This document shows, one piece after another, positions 8,723-25,570 of a stretch of 44,902 bases of DNA. The translations under genes and the position numbers were made by a program. Under the pieces are notes generated by a model. That model searched no databases and was not told the origin of the DNA. It saw nothing but the letters and a program-made list of their open reading frames with translations. Source of the DNA: an uncultured Acidimicrobiaceae bacterium (GTDB lineage: Bacteria; Actinomycetota; Acidimicrobiia; Acidimicrobiales; Poriferisodalaceae); assembly GCA_913020735.1 (NCBI GenBank), contig CAJWBN010000003.1, forward strand, positions 1 to 44,902, read 5' to 3'. Numbering within the stretch: position 1 is the first letter of the stretch; the number at the start of each line of letters is the position of its first letter.

Positions 8723-9118
8723 ATGACTATTCAACCTCGGCATCCTCATTTACTGAAACTGGTTGACCCGCCGATCCTCGTGGGTCATAGGTGTATTACC
8801 TGTGAACGGATCGCTTTCCCCCCGGATCCCTACGGATGCGAAAAATGTGGCTCGCCTGCATCAAATTTCGAAAAATGGGATTTGCAGGCACGGGGATCTG
8901 TTCAGGCAGTAGCGACCGTGCATCGCCATCATCGACCTACACCGCCGACACCATTCACAGTTGGTGTTATTGAGTTGGTTGAGGGTCCAGTCGTGAAGGC
9001 AATCGTGGAAGGTGATGGCGTTGTTGTCGGCAGTTCAGTTGAAGGTTTCTTGGCACCGGAGGAACCAGATGACGCCGGCAATGTCATCGTGGATCTCCGT
9101 TTTCGGGTTACCCGATGA
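8723..9118 (+). CDS. Zn-ribbon/OB-fold (DUF35) protein, acyl-CoA-binding partner of thiolase-like protein
   Basis: A 131-residue DUF35 protein. The N-terminal rubredoxin-like zinc ribbon is clear: CITC then CEKC, 16 residues apart, within residues 23-42. An OB fold follows, containing GSVQAVATVHR and FTVGVIELVEGPVVKAIVEG. Such proteins form complexes with SCP2-type thiolases or thiolase-like aldolases and bind the CoA ester. The stop overlaps the start of the downstream thiolase-like gene (ATGA), which supports a stoichiometric complex. ChsH2-type DUF35 domains in steroid side-chain degradation are the best-known analogues; the substrate here is not known. Confidence 0.85.
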   Translation: MTIQPRHPHLLKLVDPPILVGHRCITCERIAFPPDPYGCEKCGSPASNFEKWDLQARGSVQAVATVHRHHRPTPPTPFTVGVIELVEGPVVKAIVEGDGVVVGSSVEGFLAPEEPDDAGNVIVDLRFRVTR

Positions 9119-10266
9119 ACGCGTCCAGCTTGCTGTCTACGCGGCCTGTTTTCGTTGTCGGAATAGGTTTACATCGATATCAGCGACGTAGCGATGAAAC
9201 ATACGTTTCATTGGGTTTGGCCGCTGTTCGTGAGGCCTTAAGCGACGCTGACGTGAGTTGGGCGGACGTTGATGCCGCATACACGGGGACTGCTTTGCTC
9301 GGAATGGGTGCGAGCAGAATAATGCTGAGCAAACTCGGCGCTACGGGCATCCCTATGACTCAGGTCGAAAACGCGTCAGCCTCGGGCTCCTCATCAGTAG
9401 CCCAGGCATGTTTGGAAGTTGCTTCAGGCCGATCCGATGTCGTAGTCGCGTTAGGTGTCGATAAACCTCGAGGTGGTTTAGGGGCTGCTCCTGGTGAAGC
9501 TGGCATCGCAAATCTCGAAGCTGGCTCTGTAGTGCCGTTCACTCATTTCGCTTTGCTCGCTTCGGAGTACATGAACTTGCATGGGGTATCAGATGAGCAG
9601 GTAGCGAAAGTCGCTGTAAAGAACCATAGGAACGGTTCTCAAAACCCTTTTGCTCAAAGGCAGAAGGTTCGAAGTCTTGAAGAAGTCCTGACCGAACCAA
9701 TCTCTGGGTCGTTGACGAGGTTGCAATGTTGTCCCGTGGGTGAGGGGGCAGCGGCGGTCATTATTGCTTCCGAAGAGGGAATTGAGCGGCTACGAATTGA
9801 TCGCTCTCGAGCGATGCAAGTTGTTGCTTCGGCAACAAAAACCGAAGGACTTTACGCTGAGGGCGTTGGCATCGATGCTGCTTTGACAGCCGAAACTGGC
9901 GCAGCTGCGTTCGAGGAAGCGGGCCTTGGGCCAACGGACCTCGACGTACTTGAGGTGCACGACGCCTTCGCTATCGAAGAGTTGTTGTATGCCGAAGCAT
10001 TGGGGCTTTGTCAGCCTGGCGAAGCTGCAGCACGTGTCGAGTCAGGTGATTTTGATATTGGTGGCAGTTGTGCGTTTAGTCCTTCGGGAGGATTGCTAGC
10101 GATGGGCCATCCGATCGGCCCTACTGGAGTTGGACAGGTCGCAGAGGTAGTGCGACAGTTACGAGGTGAAGCTGGCTCTCGGCAACAACCGAACGCCCGC
10201 GTTGGTATGGCTCATATGGTCGGAGTCGGTGCGGTTTGCGTGGTGCACATACTCCGCAAGCCGTAG
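9115..10266 (+). CDS. SCP2-type thiolase-like protein lacking the nucleophilic Cys
   Basis: A 383-residue thiolase-fold protein of the lipid-transfer-protein (SCP-x) branch. Fold signatures are intact: VENASASGSSSVAQA, EVHDAFAIEELLYAEALGL, and SPSGGLLAMGHPIGPTG with the conserved histidine. However, the usual nucleophile position in VENACASG is Ser88 (codon TCA at 9376-9378). That makes conventional thiolysis unlikely and resembles the retro-aldolase Ltp2, whose partner is also a DUF35 protein. The start ATG overlaps the DUF35 stop. The C-terminus HMVGVGAVCVVHIL corresponds to the thiolase HNxGxGG strand. The reaction remains inference. Confidence 0.85.
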   Translation: MNASSLLSTRPVFVVGIGLHRYQRRSDETYVSLGLAAVREALSDADVSWADVDAAYTGTALLGMGASRIMLSKLGATGIPMTQVENASASGSSSVAQACLEVASGRSDVVVALGVDKPRGGLGAAPGEAGIANLEAGSVVPFTHFALLASEYMNLHGVSDEQVAKVAVKNHRNGSQNPFAQRQKVRSLEEVLTEPISGSLTRLQCCPVGEGAAAVIIASEEGIERLRIDRSRAMQVVASATKTEGLYAEGVGIDAALTAETGAAAFEEAGLGPTDLDVLEVHDAFAIEELLYAEALGLCQPGEAAARVESGDFDIGGSCAFSPSGGLLAMGHPIGPTGVGQVAEVVRQLRGEAGSRQQPNARVGMAHMVGVGAVCVVHILRKP

Positions 10267-10274
10267 CTGGATTC

Positions 10275-11762
10275 TTAGCTGTTTTGGGGAAATCCCAGGT
10301 CTATTTGGCTTGAAGCTGGATCGGGCCATCGAGCGGTTATCGCCTTAGCCCGGGTGTAGAAACGGACCCCTTCCGGTCCATACATATGGGTATCGCCAAA
10401 CAAAGATGCTTTCCACCCTCCAAATGAGTGGTACGCAACGGGAACGGGTATTGGAACGTTAATGCCGACCATTCCTACTTGAACCTCGTGTTGGAACTGA
10501 CGTGCCGCTCCTCCGTCACGTGTGAAGATGGCGGTGCCGTTTCCGAACGGGTTCGAGTTGATGAGATCCATCGCTTCTTGGAAGCTATCTACCCGTACGA
10601 CGCTGAGAACAGGCCCAAAAATTTCATCCTGATAGCACTCCATGTCAGCGGTTACTTCATCTAGGAGAGTCGGCCCGTAGAAAAATCCGTCAGCAGGGAG
10701 ATCTGCGCTGCTGCCATCAACAACTGCAACCGCTCCTGCTTGCTGAGCTCTCTCGACATAACCAGCAACGCGGTCACGATGTTCTGCAGTGATGAGTGGT
10801 CCCATTTCTGCATCAGGTTCGGTTCCCACTCCAACCTTGACTTCTGGGATTCTTCTTGAGATTGCCGCTACAAGTTCATCACCGGCTGATCCCACAGCTA
10901 CCAAGGCACTTACAGCCATGCATCGTTCGCCAGCAGATCCATATGCTGCGCTTACGGCAGCATCTGCAGCCATCTCTATATCGGCGTCAGGTAGAACCAA
11001 CATGTGGTTCTTAGCTCCGCCGAGTGCTTGCACTCTCTTACCCGCAGAGGTCGCGCGTTCATATACATAGCTGGCTATTGGGGTTGATCCAACGAAACTG
11101 ATAGCAGCGACGTCCTCATGGTCGATTAGGGCATCAACAGCTTGCTTGTCGCCGTTAACTACAGAGAACACTCCAGGGGGGAGCCCCGCTTCAATAAACC
11201 ATTCAGCGATCAACATTGATGCCGAAGGGTCTCTCTCAGATGGTTTGCAAATGAAGGCGTTTCCGCAGGCAATAGCAGTTGCGAACATCCAAGCTGGGAC
11301 CATCGCAGGAAAGTTGAACGGCGTGATACCAGCGACAACACCGAGTGGTTGGCGGAGGCTGTATACCTCAATCCCAGCGGATACTTGCTCGTTAATTTCG
11401 CCTTTAAGATGGTGCGCTATTCCGCAGGCAAACTCGACATTTTCGAGCCCCCGTGCCACCTCGCCAGCGGCGTCTGATACGACCTTGCCGTGTTCACTGC
11501 TAATGACTCTTGCAAGTTCATCGGTGCGGTCGGAAAGCAACTCGCGGAAACGGAACATGATTTGTGTTCGTTGTGTGAGAGAACTTTCTGCCCATTCTTC
11601 TGATGCTTTACGTGCGGACGCGACAGCTTCGCCCACTTCGGCTACTGAAGCTAAGTCGACTTGGGCTTGTACTTGCCCGGTAGCTGGGTTGTACACATCG
11701 CCGGATCTTCCGCTGGTTCCGGCTTGGTGTTGACCGTTAATAAAATGTTGGATACGTCGCAC
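10275..11762 (-). CDS. mmsA: CoA-acylating methylmalonate-semialdehyde dehydrogenase
   Basis: Aldehyde-dehydrogenase superfamily, 495 residues. It converts (methyl)malonate semialdehyde with CoA and NAD to propionyl- or acetyl-CoA, in valine, inositol or beta-alanine breakdown. Hallmarks of the MmsA subgroup: ITPFNFPAMVPAWMF near residues 146-160, the GGAKNH motif at 248-253 (in place of the usual GGK with the general-base Glu), and the catalytic Cys281 in GSAGERCMAVS. The ATG start at 11762 gives the expected MRRIQHFINGQ. It converges on the thiolase-like gene with 8 bp between, and lies downstream of an acyl-CoA dehydrogenase gene (48 bp gap), so these two may form an operon. Confidence 0.93.
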   Translation of the reverse strand: MRRIQHFINGQHQAGTSGRSGDVYNPATGQVQAQVDLASVAEVGEAVASARKASEEWAESSLTQRTQIMFRFRELLSDRTDELARVISSEHGKVVSDAAGEVARGLENVEFACGIAHHLKGEINEQVSAGIEVYSLRQPLGVVAGITPFNFPAMVPAWMFATAIACGNAFICKPSERDPSASMLIAEWFIEAGLPPGVFSVVNGDKQAVDALIDHEDVAAISFVGSTPIASYVYERATSAGKRVQALGGAKNHMLVLPDADIEMAADAAVSAAYGSAGERCMAVSALVAVGSAGDELVAAISRRIPEVKVGVGTEPDAEMGPLITAEHRDRVAGYVERAQQAGAVAVVDGSSADLPADGFFYGPTLLDEVTADMECYQDEIFGPVLSVVRVDSFQEAMDLINSNPFGNGTAIFTRDGGAARQFQHEVQVGMVGINVPIPVPVAYHSFGGWKASLFGDTHMYGPEGVRFYTRAKAITARWPDPASSQIDLGFPQNS

Positions 11763-11810
11763 CGCGTCACTTTAATCCCCAGGAGCTGAGGCCTCTACAG
11801 TGATAGCTGG

Positions 11811-12986
11811 TTACTTGTCGTTATATAGGTCGTACCGGCCTAAGCGGTCTAGGCACACCTCGACGCTCCATGGCAGCATCGTTGCTCCACATCGGGCGTC
11901 CCGGTAGTGCTGTTCGAGCTTGTTGGGTCGAAGCATGGATCGTCCCCCACAGACTCGTATGGCAAGAGAAGCCATTTCAGGCGCGCCTTCCATAACAGCA
12001 ACCATGGTGCTCCATGCGCGTCGCAAAGCGGGTTTAGTTGGGTCGACCGAGGCTTCACTCAACACTCGGTACATCAAAGATTGGGCTTTGTCGTAGATCA
12101 TCTGCATTTCTGCCCATCCGGCTTGTTTGACATGGTTGTCTCGCCGTGACGCAACTCCGTGTTCCCCCCTCAGGTATTCGCCTGTGAGATCCAGAATCGC
12201 TCGCATCAATCCGAGGTAGGTGAAGCTCAACGTCATATAGAAGTAGGGGAATCGGGAAACCATGGCATCGAAAACGCCTGGGGGTAGAACCTCGTTGTCT
12301 TCGGGGACAAAAGCATCGACAAGAACTAAATCTCGGGAGTCGGTTCCGCGCATCCCAAGAGGGTCCCATTCGCCTTGAATTTCGACGCCGTCGCTGTCTG
12401 CAGGAACTCCTAGCAAACGAACTCGAGGGTCGTCTTCCACGAGAGCTACGACATTGTGGACGTCAGCTATACCGCTGAGTGATGCGAAAATCTTTTTGCC
12501 AGTGACTCTGAATCCGCCATCTACGGGGACAGCAGTAGTACCGATTGGTTGGCCACTTCCTGGAGTTCGCCCTTCAGAAAAAGGTTGGCTATGAATCGTG
12601 TGCTGGTGGCACATGCCGGCCCATAGTTGCGGTCGGACACGGTCGAGATGAGCTTGTTGTTCGTCATCCATGCCCAGTTGGTCTGCTATCCATCCCGCTA
12701 GCAACGCAGTGGCTGTGTGCATGTTGAAAGTAAGAGCTGTGGTCGGGCAGTGTCGCCCAAGCTCCTCGCTTACAAGGGCATATGCAACGAAGTCGCCACC
12801 AAGACCACCGGCCTCAACGGGCGCACAAAGCCCAAGGAAGCCATTGTTTGCGAGTTCTTTCCAATTCTCTGTTGGGAAGCTGGCTTCATGGTCGTATTGG
12901 GCTGCTCGTTGCGAAAATCGCGGTGCGATCGCCGCAATTTGTTCGACGAGTTCCATTCGTGCCGTCGTTTGAATTGGGTCTACCAC
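11811..12986 (-). CDS. Acyl-CoA dehydrogenase-family flavoprotein
   Basis: A 391-residue member of the acyl-CoA dehydrogenase superfamily, with an N-terminal helical domain (GFLGLCAPVEAGGLGGDF), a central beta domain (GFRVTGKKIFASLSG, WDPLGMRGTDSRDLVL) and a C-terminal helical bundle (CGGRSMLRPNKLEQHYRDARCG). The canonical catalytic YEGT is replaced by LPWS in CGATMLPWSVEVCLDRLGR, so the base must come from elsewhere or the enzyme does different chemistry. The start is GTG at 12986; an ATG ten codons in (MELVEQIA) is possible. It sits just upstream of mmsA on the same strand and 9 bp downstream of the PhyH gene, suggesting one catabolic operon. Confidence 0.85.
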   Translation of the reverse strand: MVDPIQTTARMELVEQIAAIAPRFSQRAAQYDHEASFPTENWKELANNGFLGLCAPVEAGGLGGDFVAYALVSEELGRHCPTTALTFNMHTATALLAGWIADQLGMDDEQQAHLDRVRPQLWAGMCHQHTIHSQPFSEGRTPGSGQPIGTTAVPVDGGFRVTGKKIFASLSGIADVHNVVALVEDDPRVRLLGVPADSDGVEIQGEWDPLGMRGTDSRDLVLVDAFVPEDNEVLPPGVFDAMVSRFPYFYMTLSFTYLGLMRAILDLTGEYLRGEHGVASRRDNHVKQAGWAEMQMIYDKAQSLMYRVLSEASVDPTKPALRRAWSTMVAVMEGAPEMASLAIRVCGGRSMLRPNKLEQHYRDARCGATMLPWSVEVCLDRLGRYDLYNDK

Positions 12987-12995
12987 GGGGATTCC

Positions 12996-13886
12996 TTATT
13001 CATGGGATACCGGCCAGAGTACGGGGAATAAATCGGGACGCATCACGTCACCTGATTGAAGCCCTAGGTCGTTGAGCGGTGGCGACGTTTCACCTTGGCG
13101 TTCAAGGTAGCGGACATCGTCGCCTAACCATCGTGTTGAGAATGCGCGACGTCGTTTTTCTATTGGGGCTGAAGTTGTGCCATGAAGAGTTCGGAAGTCG
13201 AAACAAAGCGCGTCGCCGGGCTCTACTGCTTCTATAAAAATATTTTCTGAGTGGTCGTCTATATCGGGAACTGAGACAAGCGAATTATCGGCATTCTCAT
13301 ATTCGGCACCTGACGCGAAATCTCGAGGTCGATAGGTCTCACCGCCGCGATGCGAACCCTTTAAAAATCTGACTCCAGTTTCGATTGGTGTGTTGTCAAG
13401 CGCCACGTATATGGAGACTGTCTGGGTCCCTGCAATGCAGTAATACGGTAAATCGTGATGCCACGGCGTGGCCTTAGAAGTTCCCTGTTCCTTAGAGAAT
13501 GCGTGATCGTGGAACAGTTGGGCTGTGTCGCTCACCATAAGTTGCGCTGCTATTGCGGCTGCTGGTGAAGTGAGGACAAATCGGAGATACTCGGGGATTA
13601 ACTGCCAGTTGCAGTAGCTGTCAAAAAACCTGCCAGCTTCATCTTCGCTGATGCTTTCGCACGGAAATGCGAATGCTTGGGGGTTTTCGAGATTTCGATC
13701 GAGCCCCACACTTAGGGGCTCAACCCATTCTGTGAATGCTTGTCGCAATACGACCACACCATCGTTTTGGAATTTTTGGACAGTCTCGGTTGGTAACTCA
13801 GTCCAGGGACGAACCGTTGAGGCTACGAGTTCCTCCAGATTTTGTATTGAGCGCCATTGTGCCGCCGGGTTGTTACCTACCGCCAT
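12996..13886 (-). CDS. Phytanoyl-CoA dioxygenase (PhyH)-family Fe(II)/2-oxoglutarate oxygenase
   Basis: A 296-residue non-heme iron oxygenase. The metal triad is visible: the HxD of PWHHDLPYY and the distal His of FDFRTLHGTT, followed by the 2-oxoglutarate-binding Arg region RRRAFSTRWLGDD. NDGVVVLRQAFT near the N-terminus is the usual PhyH entry. Family members hydroxylate acyl-CoA or other small substrates; the substrate cannot be told. The ORF track begins at a TTG (13916); the ATG at 13886 is preferred, leaving 48 bp to the divergent EamA gene. Downstream are an acyl-CoA dehydrogenase gene (9 bp) and mmsA, so it probably starts a three-gene catabolic transcript. Confidence 0.85.
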   Translation of the reverse strand: MAVGNNPAAQWRSIQNLEELVASTVRPWTELPTETVQKFQNDGVVVLRQAFTEWVEPLSVGLDRNLENPQAFAFPCESISEDEAGRFFDSYCNWQLIPEYLRFVLTSPAAAIAAQLMVSDTAQLFHDHAFSKEQGTSKATPWHHDLPYYCIAGTQTVSIYVALDNTPIETGVRFLKGSHRGGETYRPRDFASGAEYENADNSLVSVPDIDDHSENIFIEAVEPGDALCFDFRTLHGTTSAPIEKRRRAFSTRWLGDDVRYLERQGETSPPLNDLGLQSGDVMRPDLFPVLWPVSHE

Positions 13887-13934
13887 CTCTACATTGTCGC
13901 CGCTGTGAATGGTCAATCGTTACAGTCTTTTCCG

Positions 13935-23137: not shown

Positions 23138-25570
23138 ATGACCATGCTTGGGGACTATCGGGTAATTGAGTTAGCAGACGAACGCGGACAACTAGCTGGA
23201 AGCGTATTGGCGTCGCTGGGTGCTGAAGTTATTACGGTTGAACCTCCCGGTGGTTCCCACTCGCGGTCAGTTGGACCATTCGCAGGAGACATCGTGTCGC
23301 CCGACACTTCGCTGTGGCATTGGTCATATAACAGAGGCAAGAAATCAATAGTTCTTGATCTCGAAACATCTGAAGGCCGTGACGAATTACTTCGTTTAAC
23401 CGATGGCGCCGACATTGTTATTGAAGCCTTCGGACCTGGCGTATTAGATGAGTTAGGGATCGGTTACAACGTGATGGCCGACAGAAACCCTGCATTGATT
23501 CATCTATCCATCTCTGCGTTCGGCGGCACCGGTCCCAAGGCCAAATGGCCAGCAACTGATCTGACGATTATGGCGTCAGGCGGGCAGATGGTGTTAACCG
23601 GGGACTCAGACCGTTCTCCTATTCGAATCCCACTACCCCAGGCATATGCTCACGCAGCCGCCGAATGTTCTAGCGCCGCGTTGATCGCCTTGTATGAAAG
23701 AGAAAACAACTCGGGGTTAGGTCAACACATTGACCTTTCAGCTCAAGCATCAACATTGCAGGCAAGCCAGACCTACATGGTCGCCCTAGCCATCAACGCA
23801 CCAGAATCCAATCGAGAAGCTGGCGGGGTGACCGTCGCAGGAATCTATATACAACTGATGTGGCCATGCGCCGATGGTCACGCATCAGTCACAGTTCTAT
23901 TTGGAACCGCGTTAGGTCCATACACCCGTCGACTCATGGAATGGATCCACGAAGAAGGTTTTTGCGATGAGGAGACTCTGAACAAAGACTGGTTGAACTA
24001 TGCCGACTTACTGTTTTCTGGCAGCGAGCCGGTCGAAGAGTACGACAGAGTCAAGCAATGCGTTACCGACTTTTGCATGACTAAAACAAAGAAAGAGTTA
24101 TTCGACGCCGCTTTCGAACGGCGGCTACTTATAGCTCCAGTCACAACTGCTGAAGATGTGTACAACAACCCTCACCTACAGGCACGCGACCTATGGGAGG
24201 ACTTGGTAGTTGAGGGCCGAGAAGTCAAATTCCCCGGCAGGATGGCCATTTTCTCCGAGACGCCGCAAGTTCCACTTCCACCTCCACCATCAATCGGTGA
24301 ACACACAACACAAGTTCTTTCCGAGCCGCCAAGAAAGCCGAGCGTTTCGATTCCGGCAATCCCAGATCGTCAAGGGAAAGCCCTCGAAGGTTTGAAGGTG
24401 CTTGATTTCATGTGGGTCATGGCTGGTCCCGCAGGAAGTCGGGTATTAGCCGACTACGGGGCAAACATCGTTCGAATAGATTCCGAAGCTCGAATGGACA
24501 CCGCGAGAACCTTGTTCCCATTTCATGATGATGAAGGGCTGCCAGATAACTCGGCGCTCTACAGCAATATGAATGCAAACAAACGCGGGCTGTCGCTTGA
24601 TCTGAATAAACCCGAAGCAATCGAAGTAGTCCACGATTTAGTGCAATGGGCTGATGTTGTTCTCGAATCTTTCTCACCGAAAGGGATGCGTGGCTTCGGT
24701 CTGAGCTACGAGTCGTTGCGCAAAATCAAACCTGATCTAGTGATGGCTTCTAGCTGCATCATGGGACAAACAGGCCCTTACACAGAACTAGCTGGCTACG
24801 GGACAATGGCCGCTGCTATTTCAGGGTTCTTCGAACCGACGGGGTGGCCCGATCGTGGTCCATCGGGGCCTTTTGGTGCTTACACCGACTACATATCAAG
24901 CCGTTACTTAGTGGCATGCGTCATGGCGGCTGTCGAGCATCATCGAGCGACCGGTCAAGGTCAGTATCTCGATTTCAGTCAAGGAGAAGCGTCGATGCAG
25001 CAACTCGCACCATTGCTTCTTGATTGGTCAGTGAATAGCCGCATGTGGGAACGGCGTGGGAACAGAGATGACGTTTTCGCTCCCCATGGGGTGTTCCCAT
25101 CGACTGGTGATGACGAATGGGTAGCGATCGCTGTCTGCGATGACGATCAGTGGCAGGCATTGTGTGATCTGATGGGCACTTCCGGCGTGAGTGGCCTGAC
25201 CGTGGAGGAGCGACAAACCCGTCAAGACGAACTCGAACAGCTCATTAGTGACTGGACGTCTTCACGCTCAAATGGCGAAGTCATGGAACTGTGTGTAGCT
25301 GCTGGTATTCCCGCTCATCAGGTTCAAAACAGTCGGCACACTCTCGTCGACCCCCAGTTGAAACACCGGAACCATTTCATCGAAGTGGGCCATCCAACTC
25401 AGGGCACAACAACGATCGAGAATTCTCGGTTCGTGATGTCGCGCACTCCTGCTGTGGTTACCTACGGCGGTCCCAGCTGGGGAGAACACAATTGGGAAAT
25501 TTTGAGTGAAGAACTTGGATATGACCCAGATCGGATTGCCGATCTGGCGATCGCTGAAGTTCTTGGTTGA
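23138..25570 (+). CDS. Fused tandem class III (CaiB/BaiF) CoA-transferase
   Basis: An 810-residue protein made of two CaiB/BaiF domains. The first spans about residues 1-385 (LGDYRVIELADERGQLAGSVLASLGAEVI); the second spans about 415-810 (LEGLKVLDFMWVMAGPAGSRVLADYGANIVRID). Each has its own RGKKSIVLDLE or KRGLSLDLN loop and a GQHIDLS or GQYLDFS strand. The catalytic Asp appears only in the second half (D584 in GAYTDYISS); the matching part of the first half reads QAYAHAAAE. Class III enzymes move CoA between organic acids. The fusion may stand in for two-subunit enzymes with one active and one structural subunit. The substrate is unknown. Confidence 0.9.
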   Translation: MTMLGDYRVIELADERGQLAGSVLASLGAEVITVEPPGGSHSRSVGPFAGDIVSPDTSLWHWSYNRGKKSIVLDLETSEGRDELLRLTDGADIVIEAFGPGVLDELGIGYNVMADRNPALIHLSISAFGGTGPKAKWPATDLTIMASGGQMVLTGDSDRSPIRIPLPQAYAHAAAECSSAALIALYERENNSGLGQHIDLSAQASTLQASQTYMVALAINAPESNREAGGVTVAGIYIQLMWPCADGHASVTVLFGTALGPYTRRLMEWIHEEGFCDEETLNKDWLNYADLLFSGSEPVEEYDRVKQCVTDFCMTKTKKELFDAAFERRLLIAPVTTAEDVYNNPHLQARDLWEDLVVEGREVKFPGRMAIFSETPQVPLPPPPSIGEHTTQVLSEPPRKPSVSIPAIPDRQGKALEGLKVLDFMWVMAGPAGSRVLADYGANIVRIDSEARMDTARTLFPFHDDEGLPDNSALYSNMNANKRGLSLDLNKPEAIEVVHDLVQWADVVLESFSPKGMRGFGLSYESLRKIKPDLVMASSCIMGQTGPYTELAGYGTMAAAISGFFEPTGWPDRGPSGPFGAYTDYISSRYLVACVMAAVEHHRATGQGQYLDFSQGEASMQQLAPLLLDWSVNSRMWERRGNRDDVFAPHGVFPSTGDDEWVAIAVCDDDQWQALCDLMGTSGVSGLTVEERQTRQDELEQLISDWTSSRSNGEVMELCVAAGIPAHQVQNSRHTLVDPQLKHRNHFIEVGHPTQGTTTIENSRFVMSRTPAVVTYGGPSWGEHNWEILSEELGYDPDRIADLAIAEVLG

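Follow-up and report, generated by a model that had tools for sequence, protein, structure and literature searches.

A DUF35-linked thiolase-fold protein with serine at the nucleophile position belongs to a widespread clade and possibly cleaves beta-ketoacyl-CoA

In a stretch of 44,902 nucleotides from an uncultured Acidimicrobiaceae bacterium (hereafter the window), a DUF35 gene is followed by a gene for a thiolase-fold protein that has a serine where the catalytic cysteine is expected. Thiolases are textbook cysteine enzymes. We found that this protein belongs to a widespread Ser-type clade, in which Ser88, Glu288 and Pro336 strictly co-occur. The reading we rank first, and hold only tentatively, is that the pair makes up a heteromeric DUF35/thiolase-fold enzyme performing retro-Claisen cleavage of a beta-ketoacyl-CoA, by means of Ser88 with His332 and perhaps Glu288. 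Retro-aldol cleavage by residues other than those of known aldolases is ranked second. If true, a conserved, multi-phylum clade would contain a thiolase or hydrolase that works with serine, or would offer a second route to a CoA aldolase. In both cases many genes annotated as "thiolase family protein / acetyl-CoA acetyltransferase" would need correcting, and an evolutionary exchange of nucleophile could be tested directly.

The gene pair and its active site

The genes and residues discussed are listed in Table 1. The two reading frames overlap by 4 nt in an ATGA. Pfam matches to zf-ChsH2 and OB_ChsH2_C were found in the first, just under the curated cut-offs, together with four Zn-ribbon cysteines (residues 24, 27, 39 and 42) and PDB matches to 6esq_E (1.8e-07) and 6ok1_B (2.6e-06). 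The second matched Thiolase_N, Thiolase_C and Thiolase_C_1, with Thiolase_N and Thiolase_C_1 well above cut-offs. An earlier note on this DNA had described a thiolase gene overlapping a DUF35 Zn-ribbon/OB gene, and these matches bear it out. No NCBIfam model scored above its cut-off for either protein, and thus no named family covers the pair.

Table 1. Position of the gene pair and of the residues under discussion in the window.
Feature	Position	Strand	Basis
DUF35 subunit (ChsH2-type Zn-ribbon + OB fold), 131 aa	8723..9118	+	ORF, PF12172 + PF01796
SCP2-thiolase-fold subunit, Ser-type clade, 383 aa	9115..10266	+	ORF, Pfam, phmmer, AlphaFold2 model
Ser88 codon TCA, nucleophilic Cys position	9376..9378	+	88/88 Ser in clade; Cys in 43/43 Cys-type thiolases
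His282 of HDAF, at catalytic Tyr294 (Ltp2) / Tyr302 (Sal) position	9958..9960	+	alignments
Glu288, clade-specific carboxylate, helix after HDAF	9976..9978	+	88/88 Ser clade, 0/43 Cys-type thiolases; model helix 286-295
His332 of GHP, at Tyr344 (Ltp2) position	10108..10110	+	alignments
Pro336 in GHPIGPTG	10120..10122	+	Ala in 41/43 Cys-type thiolases

In phmmer alignments, Ser88 (VENASASG) lines up with the catalytic Cys both in zebrafish SCP2-thiolase (NNNCSTG) and in BbsB (QSACSAG); reading frames and alignments thus agree with the Ser88 and the retained GHP histidine previously read from the letters. The label "Cys-less" holds for the catalytic positions but not for the whole protein, which has six cysteines (99, 205, 206, 299, 319 and 375), none of them at a catalytic position or invariant in the clade.

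The AlphaFold2 model of the thiolase subunit (pLDDT 92.6, pTM 0.93) has a thiolase fold, and its best PDB matches in a fold search were SCP2-thiolase, BbsB and an archaeal ACAT, with Ltp2 at rank 40. Bit scores of the window protein were 215 with SCP2-thiolase, 198 with BbsB, 77 with Ltp2 and 74 with the Sal chain (that of 9MYR, recognised by its YDCY motif). Glu288 lies four residues past Ala284, which occupies the position of the HDCF Cys, in the first turn of the next helix, and Pro336 lies in the GHP loop.

A Ser-type clade conserved across phyla

When bacterial and archaeal genomes were scanned, 80 loci with 92-56% identity were obtained, spanning Acidimicrobiia, Actinomycetes, Alpha-, Beta- and Gammaproteobacteria, Binatota and Myxococcota. 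Ser88 was invariant in 81/81 rows and then in all 88 rows of a larger alignment, with HDAF and GHP retained throughout. Being encoded by five codons across the clade (TCG, TCC, TCA, TCT and AGC), this invariant serine reflects neither chance nor a sequencing error. Glu288 and Pro336 were likewise present in every one of the 88 Ser-type rows, and after dereplication each of the three residues was found in 33/33 Ser-type rows and in 0/43 Cys-type thiolases. Ala284 and His332 were also found in 88/88 rows, and His282 in 87/88 (the last being an unread residue); His282, Asp283, Glu289 and His332 are common to the clade and to active thiolases.

Plasmid relatives with 48-59% identity are also Ser-type, as are two divergent members (40-43% identity; L133 and L135) in genomes of the window's order. 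Of the other relatives examined, those with about 45% identity or less almost all have Cys, and a more distant group has Gly or Ser-Ser, with a YDxF motif. On a Halococcus dombrowskii plasmid (L091, 2992-4161), a DUF35-linked thiolase adjoining an enoyl-CoA hydratase has Gly for Cys (ENGGATG) and retains HDAF and GHP, apparently a separate loss of the nucleophile. Three thiolase-like proteins (L131, L144 and L121) have the Cys, in CA(A/S)GA, and YDLS and GEAVPAQ replace HDxF and GHP. The structures, families and papers searched yielded no characterised member of the Ser-type clade.

Canonical thiolase chemistry has probably been lost, as the earlier note had proposed. Gene decay is ruled out by the conservation and by the homologues with 92-56% identity in many phyla, and the coordinated change of Ser88, Glu288 and Pro336, maintained across phyla, favours catalysis over decay. 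The loss of the canonical nucleophile could also indicate a non-catalytic scaffold or regulator, but His282, His332, Ser88 and Glu288 are strictly conserved across phyla and the gene is usually the sole thiolase-fold gene of its cluster, so that we give this idea very little credence. An ordinary thiolase with its Cys elsewhere, which the earlier note had seen as a danger to its own reading, could draw on the six cysteines, in particular on C205 (85/88 rows) and C375 (80/88). It appears highly improbable, since each Cys column varies among the 88 rows and C205 is just as frequent in Cys-type thiolases (46/50).

In a 92-row tree, the Ser rows formed one side of a branch with an SH-aLRT of 97. 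In the free tree, the window protein sat with the thiolases, parted from Ltp2 and Sal by a branch with a support of 100. A tree constrained to join the Ser clade with the aldolases was not rejected (AU p = 0.68), and the tree therefore cannot decide the ancestry of the clade relative to them.

The earlier note had proposed a retro-aldolase pair of the Ltp2/ChsH2 kind. The steroid aldolase Ltp2-ChsH2(DUF35) (6OK1) is like the window pair a DUF35-linked thiolase fold without a catalytic Cys. Unlike it, Ltp2 has GGG at the nucleophile site and uses Tyr294 (of YDHF) as base and Tyr344 as acid; Tyr294, His296 and Tyr344 align with His282, Ala284 and His332 of the window protein, and the tyrosines that the note had suggested looking for are thus replaced by histidines. 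The bile acid aldolase Sal-Shy shares the DUF35 partner and the lack of Cys at the nucleophile position, but its DUF35 domain is fused to a MaoC hydratase, and its catalysis involves Tyr302 and Cys304 of YDCY (PMC12329534), which align with His282 and Ala284 of HDAF; it also has Gln352, where the window protein has His332 of GHP. Membership of the Ltp2/Sal group is ruled out by these catalytic residues, and the Ltp2-like mechanism is not supported; active thiolases rank first in the sequence and fold searches. Elsewhere in the window's genome, three thiolase-fold paralogs (L003, L004 and L005; G000:C16, C91 and C84) have YDSF or YDAF and a Gly at the nucleophile site, a pattern resembling Ltp2, Sal and PDB 4U4E. 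Judged by these motifs, they make stronger Ltp2-type aldolase candidates than the window gene does.

Genomic neighbourhoods

In relatives as in the window, DUF35 lies directly upstream of the thiolase gene, most frequently with the 4-nt overlap; the note's pairing with DUF35 is supported. A strict 4-Cys reading frame, whose four Cys are invariant, was directly upstream in 69/87 loci; the remaining loci, among those listed, mostly had a CxC variant.

We then turned to loci beyond the marine Acidimicrobiia block and annotated their flanks with reference proteins; after dereplication, 35 had complete flanks. An SDR was found in 29 of them, a crotonase/enoyl-CoA hydratase in 23, both in 21, an AMP-forming CoA ligase in 21, CaiB in 14, ACAD in 12, aldehyde dehydrogenase in 4 and MaoC in none; these counts rest on few reference proteins per family, and may miss divergent members. 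Best PDB matches of a representative SDR included a (3R)-hydroxyacyl-CoA dehydrogenase and BbsD, and a representative crotonase matched a short-chain enoyl-CoA hydratase. Among the partner hydratases that the earlier note had suggested searching for, enoyl-CoA hydratase was therefore found in most of the 35 loci, whereas MaoC was found neither in their flanks nor among the scanned neighbour genes of the window. A BadH-like SDR led us to consider cyclohexanecarboxylate (bad/ali) degradation, and this was set aside, nothing being found that fixes the substrate.

A second thiolase-superfamily gene was nearby in only 3/86 Ser-type loci. Read most simply, the Ser protein, nearly always the sole thiolase of its cluster, fills the thiolase slot, the C-C-cleaving one of beta-oxidation-type clusters; the order DUF35-thiolase-SDR-ECH-CaiB also recurs around several Cys-type BbsB-like relatives. 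As a 3-hydroxyacyl-CoA-dehydrogenase-like SDR is needed by a beta-keto pathway and not by a retro-aldol one, its presence also argues against an Ltp2-like mechanism, although it could act on another hydroxyl, which would count against retro-Claisen cleavage.

These neighbourhoods also bear on a retro-aldolase using residues unlike those of Ltp2 and Sal, in which the beta-hydroxyl would lose its proton to His332 or Glu288, giving an aldehyde and an acyl-CoA, with the enolate held in the oxyanion hole. The missing catalytic Cys, the DUF35 partner and the hydratases of the clusters would fit such an enzyme, as would the aldehyde dehydrogenases directly upstream of DUF35 at four loci (L035, L037, L039 and L051) and near it at three (L040, L076 and L088), and the constrained tree leaves room for it. 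However, the Tyr of Ltp2 and the Tyr/Cys of Sal are replaced by His/Ala/His in the clade, aldehyde dehydrogenases are rare in the dereplicated set and every locus that has one also holds an SDR, and MaoC is absent there. We consider this retro-aldol reading rather unlikely.

In the window, and likewise in its close marine relatives, the pair comes after azlCD, and a PhyH-ACAD-mmsA run converges on it. In the window this tight run (10275-13916, minus strand) encodes PhyH, ACAD and a CoA-acylating methylmalonate-semialdehyde dehydrogenase (TIGR01722, 703 bits). The earlier note had suggested that these genes supply or take up acyl units. The run is conserved beside the pair only in close marine Acidimicrobiia, and lacks PhyH in L030 and L031; a link to the pair is therefore unproven, and synteny among such close relatives carries little functional weight. 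No ECH or SDR adjoins the pair in the window or in the surrounding Acidimicrobiia loci, so that for this lineage the pathway is extrapolated from the other clusters.

Two further arrangements were observed in this genome. In the window, an 810-aa reading frame (23138-25570, plus strand) appears by eye to contain two tandem CaiB-type CoA-transferase domains. At L002 (G000:C17), a 464-aa reading frame with an HMG-CoA-synthase-like look and a C-terminal DUF35-like part lies directly ahead of a Cys-type thiolase gene, a dxs-like gene being adjacent. The arrangement recalls the archaeal thiolase/HMGS/DUF35 complex, here in a bacterium.

Possible chemistry and comparison with known enzymes

In the retro-Claisen reading, the thiolase oxyanion machinery would be retained in His282 (HDAF) and His332 (GHP); with these histidines intact, oxyanion stabilisation and C-C cleavage beside the thioester are plausible. 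Ser88 would stand in place of Cys, with His332, and perhaps the co-conserved Glu288 too, to activate it; it would serve either as the nucleophile, forming an acyl-O-Ser, or to activate water or CoA. The DUF35 subunit may complete the substrate pocket, by analogy with BbsAB and Ltp2-ChsH2, and the cleavage would end a specialised beta-oxidation pathway. The gain of Glu288, together with Pro336, suggests a remodelled site where a carboxylate backs Ser88 and His332. More doubtful is the stronger proposal that a hydrolase-like Ser88-His332-Glu288 relay cuts beta-ketoacyl-CoAs with water or CoA in many phyla, dispensing with a catalytic Cys.

A precedent is offered by the priming ketosynthase DpsC, a thiolase fold that self-acylates and has a Ser-His-Asp triad (S118-H297-D302; PMC12664062). 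It is like the window protein in its thiolase fold and, if Ser88 and Glu288 act as proposed, in its Ser nucleophile and His-carboxylate relay, and differs in belonging to the KAS III branch, in having no DUF35 and in placing its acidic residue elsewhere than Glu288. An equivalence of Glu288 and Asp302 was dropped: going by motif homology and the published numbering, the counterpart of the GHP His is expected to be His297, so that the Asp would lie at about Thr337.

Acyl transfer is known from DpsC-like Ser enzymes (PMC12664062), and trypanosomal SLP is described, in work cited in PMC12329534, as weakly decarboxylating malonyl-CoA. The Ser protein might accordingly be a Claisen-type acyltransferase, a condensing enzyme or a decarboxylase with a biosynthetic or salvage role, like other Cys-less thiolase folds. 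This seems improbable to us, as the clusters look catabolic, with CoA ligase, CaiB, ACAD, ECH, SDR and uptake systems.

The Friedel-Crafts acyltransferase PhlABC also combines a DUF35-type subunit, PhlB, with a thiolase-fold one, PhlC. Unlike the window protein, PhlC requires its Cys88, the C88S variant being inactive (PMC6392133), and the Cys-to-Ser variant of CsATase is likewise inactive (PMC12955522). Serine alone is thus a poor replacement for Cys, which counts against the retro-Claisen reading.

The best match in both sequence and fold is SCP2-thiolase type 1 (6HSJ/6HSP; 215 bits, TM about 0.87), which differs by the Cys of NNNC and of HDCF, and by an entry that names no DUF35 partner. 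Also close is the benzoylsuccinyl-CoA thiolase BbsAB (7PXP), which pairs DUF35 with an SCP2-type thiolase and has the HDAF and GHP motifs, but BbsB has a nucleophilic Cys, lacks Glu288 and Pro336, and was about 30% identical to the window protein in the fold search. Compared with thiolases of both types, the window protein thus keeps the histidines of HDxF and GHP, and has Ser88 in place of the nucleophilic Cys.
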